Source of the DNA: Petrotoga sp. 9PWA.NaAc.5.4
GTDB taxonomy: Bacteria > Thermotogota > Thermotogae > Petrotogales > Petrotogaceae
Assembly: GCF_002895485.1 (NCBI RefSeq)
Contig: NZ_AZRK01000002.1
Location: forward strand, 1 to 64,000
DNA length: 64,000 nucleotides
Direction of reading: 5' to 3'
In this document: positions 273 to 19,706 of the stretch, piece by piece
Position numbering within the stretch: position 1 is the first letter of the stretch
How the letters are laid out: each line of letters opens with the position of its first letter
Notes under the pieces: model-generated
The model's database searches: none
What the model was told of the DNA's origin: nothing
What the model saw: the letters and a program-made list of their open reading frames with translations, nothing else
Translations under genes and position numbers: made by a program

Positions 273-482
273 ATGTTCGTTAGAACTAACAAATCAGGCA
301 ACAACAGGTATATGAATATAGTTGAAAGTTACCGGGAAAAAGGAAGTGTAAAGCAAAGGGTACTGTGGAGTCTAGGAAAGTATGAAGAAAAGAGGTACAA
401 AGAGATAAAAGAAAATATCAAAGAGTGGGAAAAGATAGAAGGAGCAGACGAATCGGCCTCACCCCCTGTTATTGGAGAATAA
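273..482 (+). pseudogene. Truncated transposase N-terminus (IS1634/IS4-like)
   Basis: The 69-residue frame begins MFVRTNKSGNNRYMNIVESY and continues with KQRVLWSLGKYEE. This is the usual opening of IS1634-type DDE transposases, which start with a few strands before the catalytic core. A full member has about 500-600 residues, so the DDE domain is entirely missing and the frame ends shortly before the IS3-type element. A weak GAGAAGAG ribosome site precedes the ATG. It is a broken copy and no activity is expected. The assignment rests on recalled family N-termini only. Confidence 0.5.
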
Positions 483-493
483 ATAAAGAAATC

Positions 494-1477
494 TTACTTT
501 TTCACAAAAATGGTTTTGGAATTAAAACAATTATTATCATCAGAAAAGATTCTACTAAATTCACTCGGTGTCATATAATTCAAAGAACCATGTGGTCTTA
601 AGTTATGATAAAAGAACATATATGCGTTGTAAGCTTGAAAAACATCTTCAATATTTTCAAAAGAATTCAGTTGAACAAACTCTCTTTCAAGGCTTGAATG
701 GTGTGATTCAATGAATGCTTGTGAATTAGGATTGTTCTTGTATCCAAACTCATGAGTTATTTCCATTTCATCCATAAATGATTTAGTTGCTTTTGATTTG
801 AATTGAGGGCCATTGTCTGTTCTTATTATGAGTTTTTTAGGGTCAGCTTTTCTGTATGAAATACCGTTGTAAACAGCTTTGATAAAATCTTTTGATTTAC
901 TTGAGTGTCCTATCTGTGAAGAAACTATCGTCTTATCAAAAGCATCAATAATATCCAGTATGGGAACAAAGCCATCTTTCGTTGTAGGAATAAATTTAAT
1001 GTCTCCTTCCCAGAATCTATTGGGAGCATCTATTTCATGATTATTTGGCCTTTTCTTTGGATGTTTGAAATGGTTTCTGTAAGCTCTAACAAAGCCTAGT
1101 TCTTTTCTTAATCTGTAAATCTTTTTGTGGTTAACAATTATTCCAAGTTGGTTCTTAAAGACTACAGATAACTTCTTATCTCCAAGAGATTTAAAGTAAA
1201 AAGTTGGATCGTTTGGATTATTATTAGAATAAATTGAAATTATAATCTTTTTAATACGTTCATCCTCAACAATTTGACCATTGATAGTATAAGAGAACCC
1301 TACGAATCTTTTTTGTTTTGGTTTAGCCTTGATAGTCTCAACAACAAAGAACAACCTTGTTTTGAAGTAAAAAGAGCTTGAACTCATATGAAAATAATCC
1401 AGAAGATAACTCAGGCAAACACCATAATTTTTGTATTTAATAATAAGAATCAATTTACCAATATCTGTATAATTCAC
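494..1477 (-). CDS. IS3-family transposase OrfB (DDE integrase core)
   Basis: This 327-residue protein has the rve integrase fold of IS3-type transposases, which catalyse cut-and-paste or copy-out DNA transfer. The catalytic triad is visible: Asp in WEGDIKF, Asp in IIRTDNGPQ, and Glu in QAFIESHH, which is followed by the usual HNLRPHGSLNYMTP tail. It opens with GTG overlapping the orfA stop (GTGA). A run of nine A residues on the coding strand (plus-strand T run 1490-1498) precedes it in orfA. A -1 slip there would join orfA to orfB in frame, the standard IS3 expression mode. The core looks intact, but the partner orfA seems damaged at its start. Confidence 0.85.
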   Translation of the reverse strand: MNYTDIGKLILIIKYKNYGVCLSYLLDYFHMSSSSFYFKTRLFFVVETIKAKPKQKRFVGFSYTINGQIVEDERIKKIIISIYSNNNPNDPTFYFKSLGDKKLSVVFKNQLGIIVNHKKIYRLRKELGFVRAYRNHFKHPKKRPNNHEIDAPNRFWEGDIKFIPTTKDGFVPILDIIDAFDKTIVSSQIGHSSKSKDFIKAVYNGISYRKADPKKLIIRTDNGPQFKSKATKSFMDEMEITHEFGYKNNPNSQAFIESHHSSLEREFVQLNSFENIEDVFQAYNAYMFFYHNLRPHGSLNYMTPSEFSRIFSDDNNCFNSKTIFVKK

Positions 1478-1713
1478 TTGTGGTTCATATTTTTTTTTAA
1501 AAGTTCTACTTCATCTTGCACTATTCTTAACTGTAATTCTTTTTCAAGAAGTATCTTTTCATAATAATTGAGTTTCCTTTTAAGATAAGCAGAATCATTA
1601 GAATTGTTGGAATCATCAGACCTAATTATTCCGGCTGATTCATAAATGATCGGAGGAATCTTTGAGTAATCAGAAATCATAGACTTAGTTCTTCCTTTTT
1701 TGGTTTTAAACAC
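1474..1713 (-). CDS. IS3-family OrfA (helix-turn-helix/leucine zipper), likely frameshifted N-terminus
   Basis: The 79-residue frame ends in a leucine-zipper-like helix (LNYYEKILLEKELQLRIV...VELL), as in OrfA proteins that bind IS ends and multimerise with OrfB. The in-frame GTG at 1713 has no good ribosome site. A better start is ATG at 1765, preceded by GGGGTGAG. That frame (MKKK...) shifts out at a four-A run (plus 1753-1756). Removing one A joins it to WVQKYKKSNYDDSV and on into this frame. So the gene probably carries a one-base insertion, or uses slippage, near codon 4. It overlaps orfB by 4 bp. Confidence 0.6.
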   Translation of the reverse strand: MFKTKKGRTKSMISDYSKIPPIIYESAGIIRSDDSNNSNDSAYLKRKLNYYEKILLEKELQLRIVQDEVELLKKNMNHK

Positions 1714-1917
1714 AGAATCATCATAATTAGATTTTTTGTACTTTTGAACCCATTTTCTTTTTCATATTCTCACCCCTTATTTTATTTTACCATTTCTTTC
1801 ATTTTTCTCCAATCTCTATGAGGGGTGATTATGCGAATTGATAGACGAGATATGTGAAGTCAGAGGTCCTCTTCAAGGGAAAGGATACCTCATATCGAGA
1901 TATAGATGAGTGTATGG

Positions 1918-1953: not shown

Positions 1954-3480
1954 ATGGGGGGAAGTAAAGAGTACAGGCAAAAGCTCAAATACCAGGTTAG
2001 TTGTGCCGAGAATAAGACGCTTGAGAACCAAATAAGGGGAGAGTTGAGGGGAAATTTAGGATTAAGTGAGATAGAGTCTGAGTTATTATCGAAGATACTG
2101 GTTGAATACGTATCGCAAGATGTAGAAATCCGCAATCCTAACCAAATAATAATAAAAGGTGCAGAAACGAAAGAGTCGTTTGCAAGAGGTTATCTAACCA
2201 AAAAAGGTAAAAGGATAAAAGTCACACCGTTTCATATAGACGATTTAGAAGTAGAGATAGAGTTTGGAATAAGTGCTATGCAGTTGAACAGGATAATAAG
2301 GCTGATAGAAGAAAGTGAAAAACAAGACTCGCTAATCTCATCAAAACAGATAAGTTATATATTAAACATAACCCCAACATCTCTGAGGGGGAGACTCCAA
2401 AAGTTGAGAAGTATGGGATTGTGCGTTCCGACAAGGGGGTTAAGTGCAAAAGAAAGGGAGAAAAAAGGGATGTACTGTTCGACGTGGTTACTAAAGAGGT
2501 ACTTCTCGAAAAAAGATACAATAAAAGCAAGAAAAGAAGTGGGTATGTCAGATACAAAATTCAAAGAAATACTCGCTGAATTTGCAACGGTAGTTAAAAA
2601 GGGACAGCTTAGAAATGACGAAGAAAAAAAACAATGGATTGAAGTAGCAAAAGAGATACCGAAAAAGGATATAAAAAGGTTCGTCTCCAAATATCCTGAT
2701 TACGAAGAAAAACCCAATGATATTCAAAGTTTAAAAAAAGTACTGACACAAGATTTCAACTTCTCGCCGATAAAGACAAGAGCGGTAGTTGAATTGGTAG
2801 AAGAGATAAAAGAAAAGTTGAAAAACCAAAGGAAAGATAACCAAGTAATCTACTGGGCGGTAGCGGCAGGGGAACCTGCAGGTAAAGCACTAAAAGAATG
2901 CAAACTCATAGGTGTAACGATAGATTACATAAACGACGAAGAGATGGGAGAAACGGAAAACAACCGTGATTTGAACAGGTTACGAGAAATAAAATTTGAA
3001 AGGATATTGAGGTACACTATCCAAGCCAAAAAAAGCGGAGGATACCTAACGTATGCAGACTTATCTTATCTAATGGGGATAAACGTTGAATCTTTAAGAA
3101 GGATGGTCAAATCCAATCCCAAGATAGTGATTCCATTGAGGGGAAGCGAATGTGACATAGGTCGAGGGATCGCACACAAAAAAGAAATAATAAGTCTGTA
3201 CATGCAAATGTATACAGAAACAGAGATAGTGAACAAGACGGGACATTCCTACGAAGCGATAGAAGATTACATAAAAGAGTTTGCAACGGTATGGATGCTG
3301 ACGAAAAAAGGGATGCCACCAGCGATGATAAGGAAAATAACGAAACGATCAAAAAAACTAATAGACAGTTACATAGAATTGATAAATCGGTATGCGGCTC
3401 CCGAATACGCCTTTAGATACCACCATTTAGAACAGATATTTTACCGAAACCAGGGGGATAAAAAAAAAGGAAGTCTTTAA
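1954..3480 (+). CDS. DUF1670-type protein 1 (helix-turn-helix modules, unknown function)
   Basis: This is a 508-residue protein of unknown function. Its C-terminal half follows the pattern I recall for DUF1670: a GGYLTYADLSYLMG wHTH-like segment, VIPLRG, then DIGRG..HKKEIISLY and a second helix-turn-helix-like stretch (TEIVNKTGHSYEAIEDYI). An earlier segment at about residues 140-220 (SLRGRLQKLRSMGLCVPTRG ... GMSDTKFKEILAEFATV) resembles the later one (SLRRMVKSNPKIVIPLRG ... IKEFATV), so the module appears duplicated. The start ATG has GAGGAGG upstream. The stop is one base from the next gene, so the two form an operon. GC content and codon use (many ACG, GCG) look higher than in neighbours, suggesting transfer. 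Confidence 0.65.
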   Translation: MGGSKEYRQKLKYQVSCAENKTLENQIRGELRGNLGLSEIESELLSKILVEYVSQDVEIRNPNQIIIKGAETKESFARGYLTKKGKRIKVTPFHIDDLEVEIEFGISAMQLNRIIRLIEESEKQDSLISSKQISYILNITPTSLRGRLQKLRSMGLCVPTRGLSAKEREKKGMYCSTWLLKRYFSKKDTIKARKEVGMSDTKFKEILAEFATVVKKGQLRNDEEKKQWIEVAKEIPKKDIKRFVSKYPDYEEKPNDIQSLKKVLTQDFNFSPIKTRAVVELVEEIKEKLKNQRKDNQVIYWAVAAGEPAGKALKECKLIGVTIDYINDEEMGETENNRDLNRLREIKFERILRYTIQAKKSGGYLTYADLSYLMGINVESLRRMVKSNPKIVIPLRGSECDIGRGIAHKKEIISLYMQMYTETEIVNKTGHSYEAIEDYIKEFATVWMLTKKGMPPAMIRKITKRSKKLIDSYIELINRYAAPEYAFRYHHLEQIFYRNQGDKKKGSL

Positions 3481-3481
3481 G

Positions 3482-4780
3482 ATGGTTAACAGGCGAGAGA
3501 TATATGGACCTTTAGAAGAAAGAACGGTTGAAAATTACCAGGTACAGTATCTGGCAAGGAGATACGATTTCGGAAAAGAATCACGGATAGCCACCATGTT
3601 AGTTAAACGGATAAACGAAGAGATAACCAAGGCGGAAAAAGCGGTAGGAATAAGTAGGGTTAAACCTTTTGAGATGTATCTTAAAAAAGGAAAAAAACAA
3701 ATCACGTTACCTCTTTTCAAACCCAGTTATCTAGAACCTATATACGAAGGAGAAACCTTCAACGATTGTAGAAGGTTGATTGAGAAGGAAATCATGGAAA
3801 AGACCGAAGAAATCGATGTGGCGGTAAGTAAAGAAGAGATGATGAGGATAATTAACCCATGGAGTTATGCGAAGAGAAGCGGACCAACAACGTACACGGA
3901 AGGGTTGAAAAAACAACCGAACAATTTTGATGAAACGGATAGTAAAAGATGGGACGAGTTCATACGTAAAATCAATCCAAAACAACCGAAAGAAAGAATG
4001 GAGACACCTGACATATCGGCACCTGAAAGAGTGAATCAAAGGTTAATCAAAATGGTGAGTGAAGAAACGGGGCTAGGTAAAAACGTGTCCAAACATCTAG
4101 TTGAAGATGTGATTCTGTTACGTAACCTGTGTTGTCCAAGAACGGAAAGTCTGAAAAGTGGTGAGATGGTATTACTGGTAACGCATGTCAGGGCGTACCT
4201 ATCCCAAGAGGTTGCGACACGATTTAGAAGGTTAGCCCCCGTGGTAATAACCGTATTAACACAGGAAGAGATGAAAAGGATACCTACAAACGTCCCCGAA
4301 GCTTTGAACCTTTTAAAAAAGCGAATAATACGGGTATGTTTTGAGGCTTACAAACAGAATGGACTGTTGACGATGATGGAACTGCAATGGATATTTCAAA
4401 TAAGTTCAACAAGGATATCAGAACTGATACGAACATTCCAAAACGAACACAACATAGTGGTACCGACACCAGGTACGATATTAGATGCGGGAAGAAGCAT
4501 GACTCACAAAGATATCATAGTCAGGTTACATTTGGAAGGTTACTCGGTGAAGGAGATAGCAAGGATAACACATCACTCACCGAAAGCGGTGGATAACTAT
4601 GTAGGAACGTTTGAATCGGTGCTGATACTGTATCTGTACAACATACCGACACATTTGATGGCCAGGAGTTTAGAAAAGGGAGTAACCTTGATCAAAGAGT
4701 ACCTGAAATTGATAGAAGAGTATTACCGAGACAAAACAGAGATTCGAAAATATCTGATAGCACAGGGGGTGAGGTTTTAA
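3482..4780 (+). CDS. DUF1670-type protein 2 (partner of preceding gene, unknown function)
   Basis: The 432-residue protein is related to the upstream one over its C-terminal part. It has NGLLTMMELQWIFQIS (winged-helix-like), VVPTPGTILDAGRSMTHK, EIARITHHSPKAVDNYV, then an EYLKLIEEYY ending. This is the DUF1670 layout as I recall it, with the conserved D-x-G-R and T-H-K positions. The N-terminal 200 residues are charged and not recognisable. It starts one base after the previous stop, with AAAGGAAG as ribosome site, so the two proteins are probably made together and may form a heteromer. Composition is more GC-rich than in neighbours. A DNA-binding role is suggested by the helix-turn-helix pattern only. 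Confidence 0.65.
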   Translation: MVNRREIYGPLEERTVENYQVQYLARRYDFGKESRIATMLVKRINEEITKAEKAVGISRVKPFEMYLKKGKKQITLPLFKPSYLEPIYEGETFNDCRRLIEKEIMEKTEEIDVAVSKEEMMRIINPWSYAKRSGPTTYTEGLKKQPNNFDETDSKRWDEFIRKINPKQPKERMETPDISAPERVNQRLIKMVSEETGLGKNVSKHLVEDVILLRNLCCPRTESLKSGEMVLLVTHVRAYLSQEVATRFRRLAPVVITVLTQEEMKRIPTNVPEALNLLKKRIIRVCFEAYKQNGLLTMMELQWIFQISSTRISELIRTFQNEHNIVVPTPGTILDAGRSMTHKDIIVRLHLEGYSVKEIARITHHSPKAVDNYVGTFESVLILYLYNIPTHLMARSLEKGVTLIKEYLKLIEEYYRDKTEIRKYLIAQGVRF

Positions 4781-4803
4781 ACTATCGTATGTTGGTTGAA
4801 TAA

Positions 4804-5264
4804 GAAAATATCTTGGGTTTTCTTTCTACCAAAAGTAAGATGGGATTGGAGTAAGAGTCCACCCCAAATCCGTTGCCAAATTCAAGCAGAAACTCAAGCA
4901 AATAACCGGTAGAAGCAATGCTATGAGTATAAGCCAGAAAATGGAAAAGTTAAAACAAATCATTGTAGGATGGGTAAATTACTTTGGCATTGCGGATATG
5001 GGCAGAATTGCCAAAACATTGGATATGTGGGTAAGAAGAAGGGTACGGATGTGCTTTTGGAAACAGTGGAAAAGAATCAAAACAAAACACGATAACCTTG
5101 TATCCCTTGGCATACCGAACCCAAAGGCTTGGGAATATGCCAACACAAGGAAGAGCTACTGGCGAATTGCAGGTAGCCCAATCCTTGCGAAGGCCCTTAC
5201 CAATAAATATCTTAAGAAATCAGGACTGCCATCAATCAGCCTACAATATTCATCAGTCCATTAA
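4804..5264 (+). pseudogene. Group II intron maturase/reverse transcriptase, C-terminal remnant
   Basis: Continuous similarity to group II intron proteins runs from KYLGFSFYQK at 4806 through GVRVHPKSVAKFKQKLKQI to the GIIM maturase domain (LKQIIVGWVNYFGIADM, WKQWKRIKTKH, NPKAWEYANTRKSYWRIAGS). A TAA at 4836-4838 replaces the codon expected after FYQK, so the frame is broken. The reverse-transcriptase domain and the rest of the protein are missing. The intact frame after the stop opens at ATG 4923. A domain V-like hairpin lies just downstream, as in a real intron 3' end. Confidence 0.85.
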
Positions 5265-5270
5265 CTCTAT

Positions 5271-5307
5271 TGAACCGCCGTATACCGAACGGTACGTACG
5301 GTGGTGT
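5271..5307 (+). ncRNA. Group II intron domain V-like hairpin (3' end remnant)
   Basis: The sequence reads ACCGCCGTATACC, a short loop, then CGTACGGTGGT. It forms the paired arms and CGTACGG core typical of bacterial group II intron domain V. It lies seven bases after the maturase stop. The usual domain VI and a clean intron end are not obvious before the next gene, so this is a remnant. Confidence 0.75.
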
Positions 5308-5332
5308 TATGGGAGTAAAGTAGATGAATTAA

Positions 5333-6253
5333 TTATTTACCTTCTATCTGATTAAAAAGTTCGTCTTTAAAATAAACATATCCTCCAATAAGATTCTCTC
5401 GGTAAGTCAATTCAGCTTTTCTAAACTTAATTCTTTCATAAGGTAAAGGTTTTCTTATTTTTTGCATAGTTTTTTCTAAAAGCTCGTTCCATGGAAAACC
5501 GTTTGCTTGAGATACCCCACCTCCAATTAATACTACTTCTGGATCTATAATATTAACAAATGTTGAAATACTAAAACTAAGAGCTTCTATAAATGAATCA
5601 ACTTCTTTTTTCCAATTCTCATCAAAAAAAGTAAAATAATTATCCTGAGAAAGATTCTTATTAAATTTTTCTTTAAACATTTTTGCTCGCTTTTCCAAAC
5701 TTTTTCCAGAGGCATAAAGTTCTACACAGTCTATATTTCCACATTCACAAATTTCTTTTTGACCTTTAGGATAATAAATATGTCCCAATTCAGAAGCAAC
5801 TCCGTGACTTCCTAAAAAAATTTTACCGTTGATTAGTAAGCTTGCTCCTAATCCTGTGCCTATAAATATTCCTAATACATTCCTTATATCTTTAACTGCC
5901 CCTAAGGCATGTTCAGCTAAAATACTAAAATTTACATCTCTACTTACTAATGTGGGGAAACCTGTTTTTTGATAAATTAATTCTGATAAATTTATGTTAT
6001 TAAGAACTTTTAAATTTGGACAAGATATTATTTTATTGCTTTGATAATCTATAGTTCCGGGTATACCTATAGCAATGCCTTTTAAATCTGCGTTTTCAAA
6101 AGATAAATCGCGGATAACATTAACTACAAAACTTAAAATATTTGAGTAAACATTTTTAGTTGCTATGATATTAAAATTTTGAACTTCATGTTTTTCAGTG
6201 ACGATACCATAAGCAATTTTTGTGCCACCAATGTCAAAGATAATTACTGACAT
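5333..6253 (-). CDS. alsK: ROK-family sugar kinase, probable D-allose kinase
   Basis: This 306-residue ROK kinase would phosphorylate a hexose with ATP in the cytoplasm. The phosphate-binding DIGGTK is at residues 7-12, followed by GIAIGIPGTID, then GTGLGASLLINGKIFLGSHG, and the zinc motif CECGNIDCVE. There is no N-terminal helix-turn-helix, so it is an enzyme rather than a NagC-type repressor. E. coli AlsK has about the same length. Its place at the end of a cluster with AlsE- and AlsCAB-like genes argues for D-allose as substrate. It overlaps the upstream cupin gene by 20 bp and has a GGAGGATC ribosome site. Glucokinase or another ROK specificity remains possible. Confidence 0.7.
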   Translation of the reverse strand: MSVIIFDIGGTKIAYGIVTEKHEVQNFNIIATKNVYSNILSFVVNVIRDLSFENADLKGIAIGIPGTIDYQSNKIISCPNLKVLNNINLSELIYQKTGFPTLVSRDVNFSILAEHALGAVKDIRNVLGIFIGTGLGASLLINGKIFLGSHGVASELGHIYYPKGQKEICECGNIDCVELYASGKSLEKRAKMFKEKFNKNLSQDNYFTFFDENWKKEVDSFIEALSFSISTFVNIIDPEVVLIGGGVSQANGFPWNELLEKTMQKIRKPLPYERIKFRKAELTYRENLIGGYVYFKDELFNQIEGK

Positions 6254-18084: not shown

Positions 18085-18232
18085 GTGAGCTCTACATGTG
18101 TGATAGCTTGATGGTGAAAGTTTGCTATGGGTTTGACAGTGGCAACAATTAGCCAAAGGCAAGTATGTCCATTGTGAGATGGAATCTGTAAGGAAGATAT
18201 CGGCGAAATCCTGGCCTGATGAACAAGGAGCC
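18085..18232 (+). ncRNA. Group IIC intron 5' (domain I) fragment, copy 1
   Basis: The 148-bp sequence begins GTGAGC and contains GATGGTGAAAGT, AAGGCAAGTATGTCC, AGATGGAATCTG, GGAAGATATCGGCGAAAT and GGCCTGATGAACAAG. These align in order with the 5' third of the Oceanobacillus-type group IIC intron. It ends abruptly and has no maturase or 3' end. It sits directly behind a terminator, the known insertion preference of class C introns. About 90% identical to the copy at 19438. Confidence 0.8.
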
Positions 18233-18343
18233 CATTTTTTAGATTTATAAATCAAAGAAGATTTTTTATTTCTATGATATAATTTAACTAACAAGAAAAT
18301 TGTTATTTATTAATCTCAAAATAACTAAAAGAGAGGACAATTA

Positions 18344-19437: not shown

Positions 19438-19585
19438 GTGAACTCTACATGTGTGATAGCTTGATGGTGAAAGTCCGCTATGGGTTTGATAGTGACAACA
19501 ATTAGTCAAAGGCAAGTATGTCCATTGTGAGATGGAATCTGGAAGGAAGATATCGGCGAAATCTTGGCCTGATGAACAAGGAGCC
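19438..19585 (+). ncRNA. Group IIC intron 5' (domain I) fragment, copy 2
   Basis: This 148-bp fragment begins GTGAAC and ends at the same internal point (AACAAGGAGCC) as the copy at 18085, with scattered substitutions. It again follows a terminator directly. No intron protein or domain V is seen behind it. The sequence up to tldD at 19707 holds AT-rich promoter text with TATAAT-like words at about 19650-19665. Confidence 0.8.
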
Positions 19586-19706
19586 TTAATAAGACTGAAT
19601 TGGAATGGAATTTAGCTATATAATTTAGATTTATATAGTAATTGTAGTATAATAAGTATAATAAGGAAAGTTAACTATCTTGAAAAGAAGATTGGAGGGA
19701 AAAATA

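Follow-up and report, generated by a model that had tools for sequence, protein, structure and literature searches.

Known prokaryotic transposable elements fall into classes defined by a small number of catalytic folds. Among the compact ones, IS21 (IstA/IstB) and other two-gene insertion sequences (ISs) are close in layout to the locus described here, having two adjacent genes and terminal inverted repeats. The locus lies in a 64,000-nucleotide stretch of Petrotoga sp. 9PWA.NaAc.5.4 (contig NZ_AZRK01000002.1, positions 1 to 64,000; genome of 2.22 Mb), which we call the window, and contains gene A (1954-3480) and gene B (3482-4780), both on the forward strand and encoding 508 and 432 aa, respectively. 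Unlike IS21 and its kin, the elements built on these genes encode neither a DDE transposase nor an AAA+ ATPase, and A and B are paralogues of the family DUF1670. We propose that the A/B pair probably forms the protein-coding core of a transposable element, and that this element represents a family not described before, referred to as DUF1670 elements.

An earlier note, made from the sequence of this locus, had reported two related open reading frames (ORFs) spaced by one base, and both were confirmed. The DUF1670 profile (PF07900) matched A with E=1.2e-56 and B with E=1.5e-40, that is, 192 and 139 bits against a curated cut-off of 25, placing both proteins in the family. In addition to its full C-terminal DUF1670 domain, A has a second, degenerate copy at its N-terminus, and B has a single one; the A/B unit thus comprises three such domains. 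The two proteins are homologous to each other (hhalign probability 100, E=6e-52).

Relatives, ends and targets of the element

Plain peptide words from the window pair recovered no relatives in genomes or viruses, and tblastn against plasmids and phages gave either nothing or weak tyrosine-recombinase matches (E ~0.4-0.8), which we did not take as homology. Relatives were found with a degenerate DNA pattern for the helix-turn-helix (HTH) motif HK..[I]..[E/D]I...T.HS..A...Y, which matches twice in the window and never in shuffled sequences. This pattern retrieved one viral contig and at least 115 stretches of genome contigs. The matches listed come from hosts in at least 15 phyla of Bacteria and Archaea, including Poribacteria, Methanosarcinales and other methanogens or anaerobic methanotrophic archaea, Bacteroidota/Ignavibacteria, Cloacimonadota, Halanaerobium, Clostridia, Aerophobetes, Neomarinimicrobia, Chloroflexi, Delongbacteria, Calditrichota, KSB1, Elusimicrobia, Zixibacteria, Verrucomicrobia, Spirochaetes and Trueperaceae. 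An intact pair, defined as exactly two adjacent DUF1670 genes on the same strand, is present in 82 of 116 loci among these matches, the two genes often overlapping by a few bases; the rest are 22 singles at edges, 5 other singles, and 7 loci with broken, extra or two converging pairs. The gene order is always A then B, and these are the only genes shared across ~100 loci. Both genes evolve under purifying selection (median ratio of nonsynonymous to synonymous substitution rates ~0.1 in the Poribacteria and Halanaerobium sets). The earlier note had pointed to strict pairing and had proposed to check for variable genome positions, and the comparison supports both: A and B occur together across the loci compared, homologues occupy differing sites, and relatives lack the genes, which contradicts unpaired, vertical inheritance at a fixed locus.

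In a Neomarinimicrobiota metagenome-assembled genome (MAG), two converging DUF1670 pairs of different subfamilies share one locus (L032, 801-4181). On an IMG/VR contig, a DUF1670 gene lies beside apparent terminase and portal genes (L006, 9071-9625; L029); over 7.9 kb, this contig shows 100% identity with a Methanosarcinales bin, and it is possibly a provirus carrying the element.

Where groups are well resolved, A and B make up all that an element of 1.7-2.3 kb encodes, to which a long type adds a small gene, orf0. Poribacteria copies share ~82-96% identity from 91-95 bp before A to ~227 bp after B; at the left, the alignment breaks off sharply into unrelated DNA, and the left flanks are unique. 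Exact ends were placed for 13 copies in Poribacteria and 4 in Halanaerobium; each of these four measures 1730 bp by identical end markers. The pair is present eight times in one genome, five times in another and three times in H. congolense. The terminal inverted repeats are built on a subfamily-specific palindrome (e.g., GGACAWWTGTCC, GTATCAWWTGATAC), namely TATCAAATGACC in Poribacteria and Calditrichota, GTATCAAATGATAC in Ignavibacteria, GGACATTTGTCC in Halanaerobium and Melioribacter, GTGACAAATGTCCCC in Cloacimonadota, and GGAAAATCTTCC in Bacteroidota and Chloroflexi. The end sequence therefore varies along with the A/B subfamily. Discrete ends with terminal inverted repeats, a general mark of insertion sequences and transposons, are thus present, more weakly so for the window copy.

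The same holds for occupied and empty sites, the empty ones being found in Halanaerobium and, at the right junction of the window copy, by comparison with three relatives. For one H. congolense copy, the left and right flanks join directly in ten other Halanaerobium genomes, one match being partial. The empty site reads ATATA-AA-GTTC, and the occupied one reads ATATA-AA followed by ATAAGGACATTTGTCC, the element interior, GGACAAATGTCCTAAATGT and AA-GTTC, which indicates that the element sits at an AA found at both junctions. The spacing between palindrome and AA is fixed for each end, at 4 bp in one and 7 bp in the other. We infer that two more H. congolense copies lie in reading frames that become continuous once the element is removed, leaving one AA. 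Overall, we hold the DUF1670 unit to be a mobile element with high confidence. The earlier idea that the pair moves with mobile elements was correct as to mobility, and incorrect in making it a passenger on IS and intron remnants: in relatives, A and B fill a discrete element that has terminal repeats of its own and no other content.

Where the host is of Bacteroidota type or a member of the Poribacteria, insertion is exactly at the stop codon of a gene encoding a sorting-domain (NYPNPFNP) protein. The 4-bp end of the element (AA followed by ATAG or ATAA plus the palindrome) coincides with the last Lys codon of the target gene, so that the element completes AAA and provides the stop. At 35 of the 47 scored junctions, the ORF ending there has an NYPNPFNP-type C-terminal sorting motif and finishes in K-K/R-M-x-x-x-K or similar. 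We rejected the alternative of the sorting-domain C-terminus as cargo of the element: even next to elements that are ~96% identical, this domain varies strongly from copy to copy, and it is therefore the target. Truncated element ends without intact genes also lie exactly at sorting-domain gene stops (L203, L204 and L205, in genomes G103 and G105), these remnants occupying the same kind of target in the same genomes. At another locus (L103, JAKIZM010000015.1, ~6140-6230), one element directly abuts an end sequence (AAATAGTATCAAATGATACC) that belongs to a different DUF1670 subfamily, both having apparently inserted at one sorting-gene stop; a separate contig of this MAG carries another element of the second subfamily (L095).

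Protein models and candidate mechanism

AlphaFold2 models of both proteins were confident (pLDDT 90.8 for A and 89.1 for B) and show helical folds that include a single beta hairpin and several HTHs. A fold search of solved structures with the A and B models gave no match at E<=0.001, and a viral structure library yielded no significant match for B. The sole recognisable local folds were winged HTH (wHTH) and HTH domains of the MntR/DtxR and NarL types. Together with weak Pfam wHTH/HTH matches, the models confirm the HTH-like modules proposed earlier for both proteins, and the suggested DNA-binding character of the pair holds. The PADLOC (defence) and PHROGs (phage) libraries gave HTH-level or weak matches only.

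The known catalytic classes were examined in turn. For the RNase H-like domain of DDE and DEDD enzymes, there was no Pfam or NCBIfam transposase catalytic-domain match and no fold match at E<=0.001. For serine recombinases, neither an invariant serine nor a fold match was found, and for HUH enzymes (IS200/IS605) there was neither a fold match nor an HUH among the invariant residues. The tyrosine recombinase domain (R, K, HxxR, H/W, Y) gave no profile or fold match, the likeness of A/B being limited to R, H, Y and their spacing; a hidden tyrosine recombinase was considered and became less probable with the structure models. As for Tn7-like systems, the elements carry no genes for TnsABC and a targeting protein. 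A literature search for DUF1670 and PF07900, and for such elements, returned nothing relevant, subscription literature and ISfinder lying outside the search. We regard the family as new because each known catalytic class that could be tested was absent and the papers searched do not mention it.

Nine residues are invariant in A (R353, D369, R396, G397, G403, H408, H431, Y439 and F443, in window numbering) and nine in B (G227, R284, P328, G331, H342, K343, I359, H365 and Y373). The selection bias of the search pattern was checked on genes that do not match it, and R, H, H and Y are invariant there too.

Since A and B are the only genes in the element, we infer that they are its transposition proteins, and it is quite likely that they are needed for its movement. 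As these proteins look like no known transposase, the element is probably a new class of mobile DNA. That A and B are themselves catalytic, and hence such a class, is for us close to an even call. Somewhat more tentatively, we suggest that they are the two subunits of a DNA recombinase that would represent a new structural class, separate from the DDE, DEDD, HUH, serine and tyrosine families. It would mobilise its own element at AA steps and, in many phyla, target sorting-domain gene stops, restoring the stop. In the mechanism that we favour, A and B would assemble into a hetero-oligomer and, through their HTH arrays, contact the end palindromes as well as the target DNA. This complex would pair both element ends and exchange strands at the AA step, using an active site that may be built on residues invariant in A and B alike (Arg, His-Lys, His and Tyr). 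In sorting-domain hosts, insertion occurs within the terminal Lys codon, between AA and A, with the element supplying A plus TAG or TAA, so that the host protein retains its C-terminus. Such stop-restoring insertion is a safe-harbour strategy, like that of Tn7 at glmS.

Several points weigh against this proposal. No transposition, excision or circular form was observed. As the proteins have no known nuclease or recombinase fold, the argument for catalysis is that A and B are the only genes, and the invariant residues could be DNA-contacting, most of them lying in an HTH. Many loci are MAG-derived. Measurements behind the AA rule come from the short type, and the right junction of the window copy is merely compatible with it. 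The left end of that copy is placed only to within ~20 bp, and its insertion is not clean: the left flank is not sequence of the intron reverse transcriptase (RT) gene that borders the right end, so that either a rearrangement followed or the insertion was not simple.

The strongest competing explanation is that A and B only bind the ends and choose the target, while a host enzyme, as in XerC/XerD-dependent elements, or a common recombinase acting in trans exchanges the strands. The models, with HTH-rich helical domains and no known catalytic fold, would suit such a role, as would the location of most invariant residues in an HTH. Yet the target is not dif-like, hosts in at least 15 phyla of Bacteria and Archaea would require the partner to be universal, and the residues that never vary in either subunit (Arg, His-Lys, His and Tyr) seem to do more than contact DNA. 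We consider this explanation rather unlikely. More improbable still is that the elements are non-autonomous and A and B passenger regulators moved by another transposase, such as that of IS1634. This would fit the IS1634 transposases located 39-120 bp from three long-type pairs, and the resemblance of orf0 to the IS1634 N-terminus. Against it, the short types have no consistent IS1634 association, A and B are the sole genes common to the loci, and the ends change with the A/B subfamily. Finally, A and B might be chromosomal transcription factors, or a defence or toxin-antitoxin system, and simply be transferred often. This reading would explain the HTH content and the weak PADLOC matches (mostly limited to the wHTH segments of CARF/WYL regulators), but is extremely improbable given the precise ends, terminal repeats and multicopy state, and is already contradicted by the empty sites of the short type.

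The copy in the Petrotoga window

With three genes, the window copy is a variant form, and the first and small one of them, orf0, is split by an IS3-family element; orf0 and the terminal repeats had been overlooked in the earlier note. The copy belongs to the long type, in which A has ~510 aa with two DUF1670 domains and B ~430 aa, and which otherwise occurs in Desulfovirgula, Desulfofundulus, Peptococcaceae, Syntrophomonadaceae, a Spirochaete and Elusimicrobia. B of the window is up to 59% identical to that of these relatives. The note's impression of GC-rich codons and foreign origin proved right. The GC content of A (37.7%) and B (40.4%) compares with 30.4 +/- 2.9% in 46 window ORFs, and that of third codon positions (0.39 and 0.42) with 0.196 +/- 0.028; by both measures the pair exceeds every one of these neighbours. 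Moreover, DUF1670 is absent above the cut-off from 102 other Thermotogota genomes, from which we conclude that the pair was gained horizontally by a Petrotogaceae-like host; the donor was probably among anaerobic Clostridia.

A search of the window for the short-type palindromic ends found none, and the ends of its copy were recognised after comparison with long-type relatives. Long-type ends come in two flavours, CTTCTTCAACC..GATATGATGG and GATTGTCAAGATATAATGG, and the window copy bears one of each (~218-264 and 4776-4804). The left terminal repeat (218-264, outer end placed within 218-240) contains CTGTCAAAGTCAG and GATTGTATATATATGATGGTTTAAA. It matches the right ends of the long-type relatives L020, L022, L069 and L099 better than 500 of 500 shuffles, and for the right end of L044 only 2 of 500 shuffles did better; it also shares a 15-bp core with the right end of the window copy itself, a match equalled by 25 of 2000 shuffles. 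The right terminal repeat, with the element end (4776-4804), is TTTAAACTATCGTATGTTGGTTGAATAAG and resembles the CTTCTTCAACC..GATATGATGG ends of L020, L099 and L100.

The 5' part of orf0 (273-458, forward strand) belongs to a small conserved gene of long-type elements. It resembles the N-terminus of IS1634-like transposases (E=5e-5) and the ORF directly before A in L100 (31% identity over 61 aa, E=2e-11), and its equivalents in L098, L099 and L100 precede A on the inner side of the left end. In L099, L022 and L105, an IS1634-family transposase gene runs toward the long-type pair and is separated from the end of the pair by 39-120 bp. The 3' part (1829-1909, forward strand) encodes an end in ..EVRGPLQGKGYLISRYR before the stop, similar to the orf0 C-terminus of L099 (..VSGPVQGKSYFSKFYRWGRK). 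Between the two lies the IS3-family element (~459-1828, reverse strand), with transposase ORFs at 494-1477 and 1474-1713, an NCBIfam transpos_IS3 match (E=2e-51) and inverted ends TCACCCC..ATTGGAGAA. As orf0 is broken, the window copy may be immobile, though A and B are intact.

The IS3 element, and the 3' part of a group II intron (4805-5345, forward strand) that abuts the right end, are the IS and intron remnants noted earlier around the pair. The intron part comprises the RT/maturase C-terminus (GIIM, E=7.5e-17) and domains V/VI (Rfam Intron_gpII, 5273-5345). Three relatives carry the same intron RT gene uninterrupted, with homology starting exactly at 4805/4806, and 92% identical intron copies with an unbroken junction are present in genomes G012 and G016. 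Because the Petrotoga genome itself has no second full copy of this intron, the relatives served as the empty site. The IS3 element is the later invader, and the intron is apparently the insertion site. Elsewhere in the window, two more group II intron D1-D4 matches lie at 18168-18265 and 19521-19679.

Significance and relation to known systems

If correct, the proposal adds a new recombinase class, represented by an element family in at least 15 phyla with only two HTH-rich paralogues, and assigns a function to the large family DUF1670. Precise landing at the stops of secreted-protein genes, with the stop restored, is a new safe-harbour strategy, possibly usable for targeted insertion.

Like Tn7 at attTn7, DUF1670 elements insert at the 3' end of a conserved gene class and leave its product unbroken. 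Unlike Tn7, they have two DUF1670 genes only and no TnsA-E, use an AA step instead of a 5-bp duplication, and target many sorting-domain genes; only the targeting logic is common to both. With IS110/IS1111 and IS607-type elements they share a dinucleotide at both junctions and ends of unequal form, but they lack a DEDD/RuvC or serine recombinase, have true inverted repeats and, in the short types, include so little non-coding DNA (~65 and ~40 bp) that a bridge RNA would hardly fit. The imperfect palindromes near both ends recall IS200/IS605, whereas there is no HUH Y1 protein, the palindromes lie within longer inverted repeats, and AA is found at both junctions. Finally, the invariant R, H and Y of A/B and the spacing G-x5-I-x5-H resemble tyrosine recombinases and their box II, but A/B have no Pfam or fold match to these enzymes, HK replaces HxxR, the H and Y lie in an HTH at 8-residue spacing, and the step is only 2 bp.
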